Origin: Synechococcus lacustris
GTDB taxonomy: Bacteria > Cyanobacteriota > Cyanobacteriia > PCC-6307 > Cyanobiaceae
DNA: 64,000 nt
NCBI GenBank assembly: GCA_903943975.1
Contig: CAJAQB010000014.1
Span: forward strand, 1 to 64,000
Reading direction: 5' to 3'
The notes below the pieces were generated by a model, which did not search any database, had not been told where the DNA came from, and saw only the letters and a list, made by a program, of their open reading frames with translations. Position 1 is the stretch's first letter. Every line of letters starts with the position of its first letter. A program made the position numbers and the translations under genes. This document shows, piece by piece, positions 22,045 to 31,690 of the stretch.

Positions 22045-22064
22045 ACCGCCGCCAAAACCTGCCC

Positions 22065-22100
22065 AAACCCCCCTCCCCCCACCAGGGAGGGGGGTTTTTT
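22065..22100 (+). terminator. rho-independent terminator of thrC
   Basis: Arms AAACCCCCCTCCC (22065-22077) and GGGAGGGGGGTTT (22085-22097) can form a 13-bp stem with a short loop, followed by T residues through 22100. It lies 20 bases beyond the thrC stop. Confidence 0.9.
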
Positions 22101-22458
22101 AATGGCGCCAAAGCCCAGCCAAAGCTGAATCTGTCTGGGGAGCAGCAGGCTTGAACCTGTGCAAAAACTGGGGACAGGCGAGGGGCGCTTCTTGGTTGGT
22201 TTTTCCCCAGGCTGAGGAAGCGGTGGAAAAGCCCTTTGTTATCCCCTTACCCCCCAAAAAACTCCCCAGGGACAAGCTTGCAAAAAACGCGCCTGGCCAG
22301 GGGCTTTGCTGCTTTTTCCCCCGTTTCCCCAGGCCCTACTACTGCGGATTGTTCTTTTTTTTTTAAACAAAATCTTTAATCCGTTTCGTAGAGGGATAGC
22401 GAGCCACGCGTTGCGGTTTGGCGATCGGTGTGGAAGCTTGGTAGCGCTCAAGTTGGCA
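22101..22458. other. non-coding stretch upstream of dnaN, candidate oriC
   Basis: No convincing gene lies in these 358 bases. The stretch contains one exact match to TTWTNCACA (on the minus strand at 22158-22166), near-matches TTTTCCCCA at 22201-22209 and TTTTCCACC on the minus strand at 22222-22230, several repeats of a CCCCAG(G) core (both orientations), and an AT-rich tract with ten or more T residues around 22345-22378. Origin location beside dnaN is known for several cyanobacteria. The boxes are fewer and weaker than in Synechococcus elongatus, so the call is tentative. Confidence 0.5.
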
Positions 22459-22464
22459 ATGGCG

Positions 22465-23631
22465 ATGAAGTTGGTCTGCAGCCAAACGGAACTGAACGGG
22501 AGCCTGCAGTTGGTCAGCCGCGCCATCGCCGGCCGACCCACCCATCCGGTGCTTGCCAACGTGCTGGTGACCGCCGATGCGGCCGCCGGCCGGCTGAGCC
22601 TCACGGGCTTTGACCTCAGCCTCGGCATCCAAACCAGTTTTCCGGCCCAGGTGGAGGCCAGCGGCGCCATCACCCTGCCGGCAAAGCTGCTCACAGACAT
22701 CGTGAGCCGCCTACCCGCCGATGGTCCGCTGACGCTTTCCTGCCCGGAGGGACAGGAACAAACCGAGTTGTCGGCCCTCACCGGCAGCTATCAGATGCGG
22801 GGGATGACCGCCGAGGATTTTCCGGAACTGCCCCTGGTGCAGAACGGCCAGCCGATTCTGCTGAGCGGCAAGGCCCTGGTGGAAGGTTTGCGCAGCACCC
22901 TGTTTGCCAGCAGTGCCGATGAGGCCAAGCAGATCCTTACGGGCATTCACCTGAAGGTGGAAAACGGCGGTCTCGAATTCGCCGCCACCGATGGCCACCG
23001 CCTGGCCGTATTGCGCAACAGCAACAGCGGCAATTCGAGCGCCAATGCCAGTGCTGGCGCCGATGAAGGGGCGGAAGCTTTTGCCGTCACCGTGCCCGCC
23101 CGCTCCCTGCGGGAACTGGAACGGCTGCTGTCGGCCCGGCCCAGCGATGAATCGATCAGCCTTTTCTGTGACCGCGGCCAGGTGGTGTTCCTCTGGGCTG
23201 ACCAGGTGCTCACCAGCCGCACCCTGGAGGGCACCTACCCCAATTACGGCCAGCTGATTCCCGAAAGTTTCAGCCGCAGCATTTTGCTGGAGCGCAAGGC
23301 TCTGGTGGCCACCCTCGAGCGAATTGCCGTGCTGGCTGACCAGCACAACAACGTGGTGAAACTGCGCTCTGAGCCCGCCAGTGGCCTGGTGTACCTGAGT
23401 GCCGATGCCCAGGACGTGGGCAGTGGTTCCGAATCGTTGGCCGCCGAGCTGGAGGGGGATGCGATCGAATTGGCCTTCAACGTGCGCTACGTGCTCGAGG
23501 GCTTGAAATCGATGGCAGATCAGCGGGTGCAGCTGCGTTTAAACAGCGCCACCAGTCCGGCGGTGATCGCTGGGGCTGAGGATGATGGTCGCTTCACCTA
23601 CCTGGTGATGCCCGTACAGATCCGCACCTAG
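22465..23631 (+). CDS. dnaN: DNA polymerase III beta subunit (sliding clamp)
   Basis: DnaN is the ring-shaped processivity clamp of the replicative polymerase. The start was placed at ATG 22465, giving MKLVCSQTELNGSLQLVSRAI as in other cyanobacteria; the ATG two codons earlier (22459) is an alternative, and the frame open to 22306 is not family-like. The protein of about 388 residues shows three clamp repeats, with KQILTGIHLKVENGGLEFAATDGHRLAV in the middle and the C-terminal YLVMPVQIR ending typical of the clamp. It leads a forward cluster with a PRC-barrel gene 7 bases downstream, then purL and purF. Confidence 0.96.
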   Translation: MKLVCSQTELNGSLQLVSRAIAGRPTHPVLANVLVTADAAAGRLSLTGFDLSLGIQTSFPAQVEASGAITLPAKLLTDIVSRLPADGPLTLSCPEGQEQTELSALTGSYQMRGMTAEDFPELPLVQNGQPILLSGKALVEGLRSTLFASSADEAKQILTGIHLKVENGGLEFAATDGHRLAVLRNSNSGNSSANASAGADEGAEAFAVTVPARSLRELERLLSARPSDESISLFCDRGQVVFLWADQVLTSRTLEGTYPNYGQLIPESFSRSILLERKALVATLERIAVLADQHNNVVKLRSEPASGLVYLSADAQDVGSGSESLAAELEGDAIELAFNVRYVLEGLKSMADQRVQLRLNSATSPAVIAGAEDDGRFTYLVMPVQIRT

Positions 23632-26778: not shown

Positions 26779-28272
26779 GTGAAGAATTTCGAATTGGTCT
26801 CCCCCGACTGGCCTGACGAATCCGTTTCCAGGCCCGATCGGATGCAGGAGGCCTGTGGGGTGTTCGCTGTGCTTGCCCCTGGGGAACAGGTGGCCAGCCT
26901 TTGTTATTTCGGGCTCTATGCCCTGCAGCACCGCGGTCAGGAATCGGCGGGGATTGCTGTTTTTGAAGGGGAAAAGGTGCGACTCCATAAGGACATGGGG
27001 TTGGTGAGTCAGGTGTTTGACCAGGAGGTGTTGGAGCGGATGCCCGGGGACCAGGCGGTGGGCCACACCCGTTACTCCACCACCGGCAGCTCCCGGGTTT
27101 GCAATGCCCAGCCGCTGGTGATGATGACCCGCATCGGTCCCTTTGCCCTGGCCCACAACGGCAACTTGGTAAACACCGGGGAGCTGCGGGAGCGGCTGGC
27201 GGCCGAGGGCATGAACATCAGCACCAGTACTGATAGTGAATTGATTGCCTTTGCCCTGCAGTTGGCCGTTAACAGCGGCCTGGACTGGGATGAGGCGATC
27301 AAATCGGCGGCTCGCCAGTGTCAGGGGGCCTTTAGCCTCGCCATCGGCACACCCAATGGCGTTTATGCCCTGCGGGATGGCCATGGCCTGCGGCCGTTGG
27401 TGTTTGGCAGCCTCGGCGATTCCGGCTCCGGTGGTTGGGTGGTAAGCAGTGAAACCTGTGGTTTAGATATCATCGGCGCCCGTTTTGATGATGATATAGC
27501 CCCTGGGGAGATTGTGCGTTTTTGTTCCGGTGAGCCGCGGCCATTTCGCAGTCGCTGGTGCGAAGAAACCCCGCGACTATGTGTATTCGAGCTTATTTAC
27601 TTTGCGCGCCCTGACAGTCGCTTTTTTGGTGAATCTCTTTATAGCTATCGCAAACGGATCGGCCAGCGGCTTGCCCAGGAGGCACCGGTGGAAGCTGATT
27701 TGGTGATCGGTGTTCCCGATTCTGGAATTCCAGCGGCGATTGGTTATTCCCAGAGCAGTGGCATCCCCTTTGGTGATGGTTTGATCAAAAATCGCTATGT
27801 GGGCCGCACCTTTATCCAGCCCACCCAGGCGATGCGGGAAGCAGGTATTCGGGTGAAGCTAAATCCGCTGCCGGATGTGCTTGAAGGCCAGCGGATTGTG
27901 GTGGTTGATGATTCAATTGTGCGCGGTACCACCAGCCGTAAGTTGGTGCAGGCCTTCCGTGATGCCGGTGCCCGGGAAGTGCACATGCGAATTAGTTCGC
28001 CACCGGTTACCCATCCATGTTTTTATGGAATTGATACCGATAGCCAGGATCAGTTGATTGCCGCCCGTTTTAATCTTAAGGAAATTACAGCCCATCTTGG
28101 CGTCGATTCGCTTGCTTATCTTAGTAAGGAAGGGATGCTCCATTGTGCCCAAGAGCAATCCCAACATTTCTGCACCGCTTGCTTTGATGGCCAGTACCCA
28201 ATTCCTGTGGAAGAGGGCTTGCGCACCCGTAAACTGATGCTGGAACCTGCGGGTATGGCGGGATCTATTTAG
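26779..28272 (+). CDS. purF: amidophosphoribosyltransferase
   Basis: PurF makes phosphoribosylamine from PRPP and glutamine, the committed step of purine synthesis. The 497-residue protein starts at GTG 26779 with a 25-residue propeptide-like region before Cys26 (MQEACGVFAV), the N-terminal nucleophile. GHTRYSTTGSS and AHNGNLVN mark the glutaminase domain; IVVVDDSIVRGTTSRKLV is the PRPP loop. Late cysteines (CFYGID and QHFCTACFDG) match the [4Fe-4S]-containing Bacillus-type enzymes. The stop at 28270-28272 falls inside a repeat that continues in the following non-coding region. Confidence 0.96.
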   Translation: MKNFELVSPDWPDESVSRPDRMQEACGVFAVLAPGEQVASLCYFGLYALQHRGQESAGIAVFEGEKVRLHKDMGLVSQVFDQEVLERMPGDQAVGHTRYSTTGSSRVCNAQPLVMMTRIGPFALAHNGNLVNTGELRERLAAEGMNISTSTDSELIAFALQLAVNSGLDWDEAIKSAARQCQGAFSLAIGTPNGVYALRDGHGLRPLVFGSLGDSGSGGWVVSSETCGLDIIGARFDDDIAPGEIVRFCSGEPRPFRSRWCEETPRLCVFELIYFARPDSRFFGESLYSYRKRIGQRLAQEAPVEADLVIGVPDSGIPAAIGYSQSSGIPFGDGLIKNRYVGRTFIQPTQAMREAGIRVKLNPLPDVLEGQRIVVVDDSIVRGTTSRKLVQAFRDAGAREVHMRISSPPVTHPCFYGIDTDSQDQLIAARFNLKEITAHLGVDSLAYLSKEGMLHCAQEQSQHFCTACFDGQYPIPVEEGLRTRKLMLEPAGMAGSI

Positions 28273-28280
28273 GACAATTG

Positions 28281-28314
28281 TTTAGGATAATTAGTTCTTT
28301 AGGATAATTAGTTC
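28281..28314. repeat. 17-bp perfect direct repeat, two copies
   Basis: TTTAGGATAATTAGTTC occurs at 28281-28297 and again at 28298-28314 without a gap. A related partial copy, TTTAGGACAATTG, lies at 28268-28280 and includes the purF stop codon. Confidence 0.9.
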
Positions 28315-28367
28315 TGTTGGAATGGAAGCGCTGGAATGACTTTTCATAAATAGTAGTTCTGGAATCG

Positions 28368-28549
28368 AAGTGATCGAATCTCATTAATCGAGTCTCATTA
28401 ATTGAATATCATTAATTGAATAGCAGTGATTGAATAGCAGTGATGTAATAGCCGTGATTGAATGACAGTAATGGAATAATAGAGATTGAATAACAGAGAT
28501 TGAATAACAGAGATGGAATAACAGAGATGGAATAATAGAGATGGAATAT
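28368..28549. repeat. degenerate 14-bp tandem array, 13 units
   Basis: Thirteen consecutive 14-base units can be laid out from 28368 to 28549 with a consensus near CAGAGATTGAATAA; early units read CATTAATTGAATAT, middle ones CAGTGATTGAATAG, late ones CAGAGATGGAATAA. Weaker TGGAAT-containing copies precede the array from about 28316, and one degenerate copy follows near 28562. Since 14 is not a multiple of three, a protein-coding origin is unlikely. Confidence 0.9.
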
Positions 28550-28656
28550 TTTTTGTAATAGCAGGGCTTGAAATACTACGGGATTCACCTCCTCCACCCT
28601 CAGCGGAGCCTATGGCCGATGGGGGAGCAAGCTGCTGCGCGATTAAGGATCCGCCA

Positions 28657-28706
28657 CTCTATGGAAAATGACCAGGGTCAAATGACTAGGGTCATTTTCC
28701 ATAGAG
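28657..28706. repeat. perfect 17-bp inverted repeat
   Basis: CTCTATGGAAAATGACC (28657-28673) is the exact reverse complement of GGTCATTTTCCATAGAG (28690-28706), with 16 bases between. No T-run follows on either side, so it is not a typical terminator. Each arm contains TTTTCCATA, one base from the DnaA-box form TTTTCCACA. Confidence 0.9.
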
Positions 28707-28989
28707 GCTGGCGGGAGACCTAATGGCTCAATCACTTGGCCAAAGCATTTACAGATACAGCATGGTTCACACTGGTCGCGGTTTCCCGCTGCCGCATAAG
28801 GGCTTGAATCTGAGGGACCCCAAGAAAATCTTGGTGCCAAGAGCCCATGAACCTGGACAAAATCCCGCGGTCGATTACTTTAATTAATGCTTATTTTTCA
28901 TCTTACCAGGTTACATCTTAAGAATTTATATATAATATAAGTATTTAACTATAAAAATCAAATAGTTTTTATATATTCAATAATTATAA

Positions 28990-29100
28990 GGGCACCTCGA
29001 AAAATTGCCGTTGGCCGCAAGAGTCTAACAATCGAGGCCTGATGAGTACATGAGTCTCATTGGCTGGTTCGCGCGTGTCCCTGGATTTTTCGTGGTGCCC
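28990..29100. mobile_element. 111-bp MITE-like element with terminal inverted repeats
   Basis: The ends GGGCACCTCGAAAAAT and (complement of the right end) GGGCACCACGAAAAAT match at 15 of 16 positions. The element is flanked on both sides by ATAA (28986-28989 and 29101-29104), consistent with a 4-bp target duplication. It is far too short for a transposase, so a non-autonomous element or a deletion relic is likely. The ends recall IS5-like elements, but the family is a guess. Confidence 0.75.
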
Positions 29101-29123
29101 ATAATTCAATAATTCAATAATTT

Positions 29124-29150
29124 ATCAATTATCAATTATCAATTATCAAT
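29124..29150. repeat. 7-bp tandem repeat near the gyrA-like gene
   Basis: ATCAATT is repeated almost four times between 29124 and 29150, just after two copies of an AATTCAAT unit around 29103-29118. The repeats end 22 bases from the stop codon of the gyrA-like gene. Confidence 0.85.
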
Positions 29151-29172
29151 ATTTAAATTATCAATGGTTAAA

Positions 29173-31641
29173 TTAATCACTTGTTTCAAGGGGCACCAGC
29201 CGCTCCAGGGTCTGCCCCTTCGGTAGCTCCAGTTGAATGCCGGCCCCACGGCTATCTTCCGCTGTGATTTCCTTGGGCTGGAAGCGCAAGCTGCCGTTTT
29301 TAGTTTCAGCGGCGATCAAACCATTGCTGCCCGCCCTCAGCTCCACCAGTTGATCACTGCGGTCGCTGAACCGCAGGGCGATTTCACCAAGATCGCCCCG
29401 TTGGCAGAGCCGCAGGCTGGCAACCGAAAGTCGCTTGATTCTGCCCAGGGCACTGGCCAGCAACACATCCCCAGTGGCGGCGCAGGCCACGGCCCCCACG
29501 ATCTTTTCGCCGGGGAGTAGTCGCATCAGCGTTGGCCCCTGGGCGGTGCGACCCATCAGCGGCACGCTGGTGTCATCAATCGCTAGCCGCAGGCTGCGGC
29601 CGGTGCTGCTGGCCACGATCAGGTTCTGATTGGCAGCACAGAGCACTACCCGTTCCAGTTCCACCCCTTCCTTCAGCTTCAGCACCGTGGCGGCTCGACC
29701 GGAGAGGTCGCGGAATTCTTCCCCCGCCAGCCGTTTGAAGCGGCCATCACTACTTAGTAAGCCCAGGCTGAATTCTTCCCCGGCCGGCGGCAGCAGCAGC
29801 ACCTCCACCACCCGCTCCCCTTGGCCATCAACGCTGTCGGGCAGGAATTTCTCGAGGGGGCCCGGCTGCTGGGCGGCAAATTCCCAACGCAAGGCCGCCA
29901 CCCGGCCACCACTGGTGAAGGCCAGCAGGCTGGGGGCTGGCTGCACCGGCAGGATCATCCGGGCGCTGGGGCCGTGGTCGCCGTAGGGCAGTGGCTCCAG
30001 CAGGTGCAGACGACCCAGCACCTGGGGGGTGGCGATGCGCAGCAGGCCATCGCTTTGCAGCAATAAACGACCATCAGCGCTGATGGCGGATCGGGCTTGC
30101 TTCCTTTGGGCTTCGGCATTGGGGCGCTGGGCCTGCTGTCTTTGGGCTACCAGGTCGTCACCGCCCTCCAGCAGGCGGGTGCGGCGGGGGGTGGCAAAGC
30201 GTTTGCGCAGGTGTTTCAGCTCGCTGACCATGGTGTTCAGCAGGGTGGGCCGGTCGTCGAGCAGGTGGCGCAGTTGGGTTTGTTCCTGGCGCAGTTCCTC
30301 GAGTTCCTGGCGCAGGCCGTCCTGTTCGAGGCCGGTGAGGCGGCGCAGGGGCATGGCCAGCACGGCATCGGCCTGGCGTTCGCTCAGCCCCAGCCGCACC
30401 TGCAGGCTGGCCCGGGCCGAGGCGGCATCCCTGGCCGACTGGATCATTTCAATCACCTCAGCGAGGGCATCAAGGGCCTTGATCAGGCCTTCCACCACCT
30501 CCAGCCGATCTTCCGTGCGTTTGAGCGCATGGCGGGTGCGCCGCACGATTGTTAGTTCCCGATATTCGAGGAACTGATCCAGCAATTTGCGCAGGCTGAG
30601 TTGCTGGGGTTGACCATTCACCAGGGCCAACATGATCGCCCCGAAGTTGCTTTGCAGGGCCGTGCGTTTGTGCAGTTCGCTGAGCACCTGTTCGGCATTG
30701 GCATCCCGCCGCAGTTCCACCACCACCCGCATCCCCTCCCGGTCGCTTTCGTCGCGGATGTCGGCGATGCCAGTGATGCGGCCATCGTTTACCTGCTCGG
30801 CAAGTTTTTCGATCCAGCCGGCTTTACTGAGTTGATAGGGCAGCTCGGTGATCACCACGGCGCCGCGTTTATGGCGCCCCTTGCCCGGCTGCACTTCTTC
30901 GATGTGGGCAACACCGCGCATCGGGATGCTGCCGCGGCCATTCAGATAGGTGTCGCGCACACCACTGCCGGTGAGCACCAACCCACCGGTGGGAAAATCC
31001 GGGCCAGGGATTAGCTGCAGCAGTTTTTCATCACTGAGGTCGGGCTGGCGGATCAGGGCCACTAGGGCATCCACCACTTCGCCGAGGTTGTGGGGCGGAA
31101 TGCTGGTGGCCATGCCCACGGCAATGCCGGTGCAACCATTCAGCAGCAGGAAAGGCAGCTGGGCCGGCAACACCGTTGGTTCCTGTTGGGAGCCATCGAA
31201 ATTGGGGGCGAAATCAACGGTGTCGTTGCTGATTTCTTCGAGCAGGGCCTCGTGGGAGAGGGAGGCCAGCCGCGTTTCGGTGTAACGCATGGCGGCCGGG
31301 GGATCGTCATCCACCGAGCCGAAGTTGCCGTGGCCATCGAGCAACGGATGGCGGCTGGCAAAGGTTTGCACCTGGCGCACCAGGGCGTCGTATACCGCCT
31401 GGTCCCCATGGGGGTGGTACTTGCCGAGCACATCCCCCACCACCCGGGCGCATTTGCGGTAGGGCCGATCGGGGGTGAGCCCCAGTTCGTGCATCGCGAA
31501 AAGGATCCGACGCTGCACGGGCTTGAGCCCATCGCGCACATCGGGCAGGGCCCTACCCACGATCACGCTCATCGCGTATTCGAGATACGAGCGCTGCATC
31601 TCCAGATGCAGGGAAATCGGAACGATGCGCTCGTCCGCCAT
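29173..31641 (-). CDS. gyrA: type IIA topoisomerase subunit A (GyrA/ParC family)
   Basis: This subunit breaks and rejoins DNA in gyrase or topoisomerase IV. The start was set at ATG 31641 ([16 protein letters not shown]); five more codons are open upstream. About 822 residues. The N-terminal domain has [30 protein letters not shown] and the active tyrosine in [14 protein letters not shown]. The C-terminal beta-pinwheel contains repeats such as [13 protein letters not shown] and [12 protein letters not shown], but I could not find the QRRGGKG-type GyrA box. That absence leaves open whether it wraps DNA like gyrase or acts as a ParC-type subunit. It is encoded convergently with purF across the repeat region. 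Confidence 0.88.
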
Positions 31642-31690
31642 TCGGCGTGGCTTCAAGGCCTGAAGGTGCGGCTCAGCCTACAGATGACGG

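Follow-up and report, generated by a model that had tools for sequence, protein, structure and literature searches.

A dispersed quasipalindrome and tandem arrays in a recently grown intergenic island of Synechococcus lacustris

The birth of minisatellites in bacteria is mostly inferred. The small dispersed repeats (SDRs) of Nostoc punctiforme, reportedly described by Elhai et al. in 2008, are said to be 21-27 nt long, to form hairpins with compensatory changes in their arms and to lie in heptamer arrays and mini-transposons. As small dispersed hairpin repeats with compensatory arm changes, they are the nearest cyanobacterial analogue of the element described here which, going by that reported description, differs in its length of 50 nt, its picocyanobacterial host and the unrelated arrays on its two sides. 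The nearest published analogue is BrickBuilt of Porphyromonas gingivalis, an intergenic, MITE-like, species-limited element of ~20 copies that contains a minisatellite, with the same 23-nt unit inside every copy (PMC4596501). REPINs, intergenic hairpins built from inverted REP halves that spread non-autonomously within one genome, offer a further likeness (PMC3116915, PMC3733652), and most REP families have a GTAG or CGTC tag at the stem foot (PMC3733652). In E. coli, hairpin template switching is known to turn quasipalindromes perfect (PMC7202029). No description of a system combining these features in Synechococcus was found in the open-access literature, although subscription journals may hold one.

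The locus considered here is an island in the window, that is, the whole 64,000-nucleotide stretch of Synechococcus lacustris DNA that was analysed, which belongs to a 23-contig draft assembly. The island, its contents and its neighbours are as follows.

26779..28272, plus strand: purF, the left neighbour (NCBIfam TIGR01134, E 5e-156)
28273..29172, no strand: the whole island, non-coding, a lineage-specific expansion between convergent purF and the gyrA/parC-like gene
28281..28315, plus strand: two copies of a 17-bp repeat (TTTAGGATAATTAGTTC)
28362..28548, plus strand: minisatellite in which a diverged 14-bp unit (GAATAACAGAGATG type) is repeated ~13 times, with a higher-order 42-bp period (TRF)
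28657..28706, no strand: 50-nt palindrome (24+2+24 nt), one of ~22 dispersed copies
28881..28989, no strand: AT-rich stretch, 15% GC
28990..29100, no strand: 111-bp IS5-type MITE with TIRs GGGCACCTCGAAAAAT / ATTTTTCGTGGTGCCC, one mismatch
29122..29165, no strand: 7-bp tandem array (TTATCAA) that adjoins the end of the gyrA-like gene
29173..31656, minus strand: gyrA/parC-like topoisomerase subunit A, the right, convergent neighbour (NCBIfam type II topoisomerase A subunit)

The best explanation for this locus, to which we assign a probability of roughly 60%, is that a mobile quasipalindrome, landing mainly between convergent genes, seeds minisatellites via replication slippage.

The island occupies exactly 900 bp between the purF stop (28272, plus strand) and the end of the gyrA-like gene (29173, minus strand). 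A sequence-only reading had recognised an AT-rich, repeat-packed, non-coding gap here; its coordinates are exact, and the repeats and the mobile element are confirmed. The GC content is 38%, against ~60-65% in the surrounding window, and the best TRF score, which belongs to the 14-bp array, is 163, compared with a maximum of 55 among 200 dinucleotide shuffles. The length of the gap, which that reading found striking, is among the longest in the window, and among the window's gaps this one alone combines low GC with several arrays, but the gene model gives others of ~900 bp or more. The palindrome has a perfect 17-bp outer stem, with pairing that extends to CCGCCA/TGGCGG (28651-28714), and folds with z = -8.5 relative to shuffles; the AT-rich part at 28925-28990 shows no such advantage over shuffles (z -1.1). 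No RNA family of Rfam was matched in the island, its small ORFs matched no Pfam family, and comparison with phage records gave no match. No tRNA was detected in the window with ARAGORN, and a tRNA-linked integration site is thus not indicated. Elsewhere in the window, positions 1-1014 form a second low-GC stretch (45%), in which the codon model calls no gene.

The island is a recent, lineage-specific expansion, given that nearly all relatives have only a short interval here: in 28 of the 29 in which both genes can be placed, the purF-gyrA gap measures -11 to +76 bp. In the remaining one, G003 of the same genus, it is 339 bp, and a scan of that part of the contig reported no non-coding array. 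This comparison, which the sequence-only reading had itself named as its refuting check, thus favours recent insertion. Gaps have also grown at two other convergent palindrome loci, one of which measures 1014 bp here versus 3, 12 and 10 bp in the relatives G002, G003 and G027, and another 433 bp versus 43 and 50 bp in G003 and G027. The loci L022 and L024 are unlike the others compared in that the relatives' gaps, too, are several hundred bp long.

The same comparisons bear on two roles that the sequence-only reading had offered, those of an origin-linked control region and a chromosome-organisation site. The gap does lie within 6 kb of dnaN (22306-23631), as had been stated, beginning ~4.6 kb past the dnaN stop (~5 kb from the gene), and its AT-rich part has the very low GC content listed above. 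However, the island is not conserved across the genus or the family, the same element is present on many contigs, and instead of a DnaA-box cluster the island has one-mismatch hits only, all inside the palindrome. The GC-skew minimum falls at ~22-23 kb, and near-match DnaA boxes cluster upstream of dnaN, at ~22.1-22.3 kb. No positive evidence emerged for chromosome organisation, the element not being conserved even within the genus, and we regard either role as exceedingly improbable. The gap upstream of dnaN (22045-22305) contains three one-mismatch DnaA-box-like sites within 65 bp (at 22158, 22201 and 22222); judging from its letters and its position near the GC-skew minimum, this gap appears to be a better origin candidate than the island.

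Part of the growth of the island is due to a MITE. The element at 28990-29100 has 16-nt TIRs in common with IS5-type copies on contigs C6, C5 and C8, is flanked by the 4-bp direct repeat ATAA (28986-28989 and 29101-29104) and has a longest frame of ~41 aa across it, with no transposase coding capacity. In its shared TIRs, its target-site duplication and its short non-coding body, it is an IS5-type MITE that inserted at this site. The TIR GGGCACCTCGAAAAAT is found at 12 genome sites with <=2 mismatches and is assigned to an IS5-family element on account of a transposase remnant within the degenerate copy on C6, a 164-aa fragment that matches DDE_Tnp_1 and, below the cut-off, the NCBI IS5_4 model. 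This remnant emerged from ORF reading; a profile search with DUF772, the IS5 transposase N-terminus, returned nothing. Contigs C8 and C5 terminate in the two ends of an IS5-family element, with a common TTAC flank; the join of these contigs is deduced from their shared ends.

A search with the island DNA locates the palindrome at ~22 loci of this genome, with copies on at least 11 further contigs, all of them intergenic under our gene model. It was found in 0 of 399 other genomes of the family, which include three of the same genus and some that are incomplete; the palindrome has spread to ~22 intergenic sites in this lineage only. Alignment of the copies reveals a conserved part with sharp boundaries, ACTCTNNTGAAAATGACYAGGGTCANNTGACTAGGGTCAWATTCAAGAGAG, and weak conservation immediately upstream of it. 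An identification of the palindrome as an IS21-type end was abandoned once this alignment had been made.

The palindrome family is likely to have originated from a MITE. On C4, the palindrome resides inside IS5-type TIRs with the target duplication TTTA, and the same arrangement, with the duplication TTAA, is found on C16/C18, provided that these contigs join as their shared ends suggest. Inward TIR-like sites (<=5 mismatches) are present at 11 of 44 palindrome flanks, compared with 1-2 of 44 in controls. At most palindromes, recognisable flanking TIRs with a target duplication were not found, and the palindrome of the window is among these, so that its IS5 parentage, as for the copies beyond C4 and C16/C18 generally, is deduced from other members of the family. 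The family resembles IS5-family MITEs in the TIR that it has in common with the transposase-remnant element and in the 4-bp target duplications, and differs from them in that its palindrome core is mostly free of TIRs, with arrays around it.

Alternatively, the palindrome could be a REPIN, a REP doublet moved by RAYT, an IS200-like HUH transposase, independently of IS5, in which case the MITE link would reflect incidental nesting. The 24-nt inverted halves around 2 nt, the intergenic and lineage-specific occurrence and the moderate copy number all fit this possibility, and the genome encodes one single-copy Y1_Tnp gene; this gene, however, at C18:12559, is ~12 kb away from the sole palindrome found on C18 (at 187) and appears frameshifted and shortened. 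The alignment shows ACTCT / AGAGAG at the stem feet, with no GTAG/CGTC tag, and two copies lie within IS5-type TIRs with target duplications. The element thus has the extragenic hairpin of inverted halves that characterises REPINs but neither an adjacent cognate RAYT nor the foot tag, and unlike REPIN/RAYT systems it has IS5-type TIRs around some copies; we consider REPIN identity unlikely. At locus L029 (G000:C18:11059-13160), positions 1453-2102 encode the RAYT-like Y1_Tnp, the reading of which shifts to another frame and runs on as far as the end of the contig.

The suggestion made from the sequence alone that the island could be a preferred landing zone for insertions is supported, with an IS5-type MITE and its target duplication as well as a palindrome that recurs between genes across the genome and is enriched between convergent ones. 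Among the 18 copies with two placed neighbours, the neighbours are convergent at 10, whereas 17% of neighbouring gene pairs would be expected to be so from the sample (p = 3e-4). Together with the very stable hairpin, this distribution would also fit if the palindromes had been recruited between convergent genes to terminate transcription in both directions or to stabilise mRNA ends. Yet the stem is not followed by a T-run, no terminator was called at the palindrome, nearly half of the copies are not convergent, and selection against promoter damage explains the enrichment equally well. Such recruitment appears quite improbable to us.

The palindromes are strongly associated with tandem arrays. 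With an array defined by a TRF score of 50 or more, 16 of the 22 palindromes have one within 100 bp and 19 have one within 300 bp; for non-coding positions in 443 kb of this genome, the corresponding shares are 4.8% (p = 4e-17) and 7.4% (p = 4e-19). The controls represent 444 kb of sampled stretches, window included, and depend on gene calls from our own simple codon model, by which low-GC genes are under-called. In the window, the array nearest to the palindrome is 109 bp off; three palindromes have no array within 300 bp, and C4 contains an intact palindrome-bearing MITE without an array. The units are 4 to 48 bp long and vary between loci, and 29 of 32 are unrelated to the element. BrickBuilt carries one conserved tandem unit in the element itself (PMC4596501); no such unit is found here, where the unit changes from one locus to the next and the arrays flank a conserved palindrome. 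The other three of the 32 units are derived from the element, namely, a 27-bp unit from the element arm at the start of C18, which also ends contig C16, a 14-bp unit from the palindrome core at L027, and a 13-bp TIR-like unit at the end of C2. The order of events, element first and array second, is directly evident only where the unit copies the element in this way.

The reverse order, in which the palindrome prefers to insert into tandem arrays that were already there, would account for the strong co-location, and the small dispersed repeats of Nostoc are reportedly often embedded in heptamer arrays. However, at all 9 loci where arrays flank the palindrome on both sides, the left array is unrelated to the right one, with similarity no higher than in shuffled controls, which argues that the palindrome did not split pre-existing arrays; a split-array model is disfavoured for this reason. 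Moreover, the relatives are array-free at the sites checked, bar one weak 1.9-copy repeat, and the three element-derived arrays were built from the element's own sequence. Arrays-first ordering is, accordingly, an improbable reading. A bolder proposal, which we hold to be doubtful, is that at every landing site, and on both sides, new arrays are built out of the local sequence by an activity that the element brings along or recruits; minisatellites would then arise routinely from its insertion or upkeep instead of through rare accidents of slippage.

Tandem arrays are also found where there is no palindrome (13 in 443 kb sampled from this genome vs 4 in 320 kb of G027), and the hairpin is, therefore, not the sole source of arrays. 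At L176 (7227-8874), two nearby gaps are packed with 14-bp, 11-bp and 16-bp arrays and have no palindrome. A search for other inverted repeats near such palindrome-free array clusters gave short ones only.

Most copies of the palindrome have the right arm CAAGAGAG regardless of the sequence of the left arm. Three copies, those of the window, L010 and L012, are perfect palindromes: their left triplets are ATG, AAG and AAC, and each of the three copies has a right arm that exactly complements its own left arm, with the usual A-A mismatch corrected as well. The three perfect copies are as expected from hairpin template switching, which supports this route of arm correction; with three cases, however, a similar pattern could also have come from compensatory selection acting on a stem of RNA or DNA. 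As in the quasipalindrome mutation of E. coli, imperfect inverted repeats appear to have been made perfect via hairpin templating, the difference being that here the evidence is natural variation among dispersed copies, which, in addition, are accompanied by tandem arrays (PMC7202029).

Under the favoured explanation, seeding of minisatellites by a mobile quasipalindrome, the island would have grown from a gap of ~0-80 bp through the insertion of two small non-autonomous mobile repeats and local tandem expansion. One of these is the 111-bp IS5-type MITE, the insertion of which left the 4-bp target duplication; the other is the 50-nt quasipalindrome, probably carried within IS5-type MITEs. The palindrome would fold into a hairpin on the single-stranded template at the replication fork, a step supported by the correction of three copies to perfection with different arms. 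Stalling and strand slippage at the hairpin may then duplicate nearby bases, and such duplications could expand into minisatellites, with a unit that differs by site. Convergent gene ends would tolerate this growth because no promoter is hit. We propose no host function for the islands and take them to be by-products of the element.

These findings suggest that a mobile hairpin can start new minisatellites. With ~22 near-identical hairpins in unrelated sequence, usually with arrays of their own and in a few cases without, this one genome amounts to a natural replicated experiment on whether hairpins give rise to tandem repeats, and it illustrates how a compact picocyanobacterial genome can gain non-coding DNA. 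When such genomes are assembled from short reads, breaks or misjoins may arise at palindrome/array sites.

Several minor observations concern the repeats themselves. At L158 and L027 (the contig ends C2 and C21), the contigs break within ~108-bp tandem copies of the palindrome plus flank; the C2 and C21 ends have common sequence and may join. In the arrays beside palindromes genome-wide, a period of 14 bp or of its multiples, 28 and 42, comes up repeatedly, possibly by chance, and the palindrome core, too, has a 14-bp repeat period.
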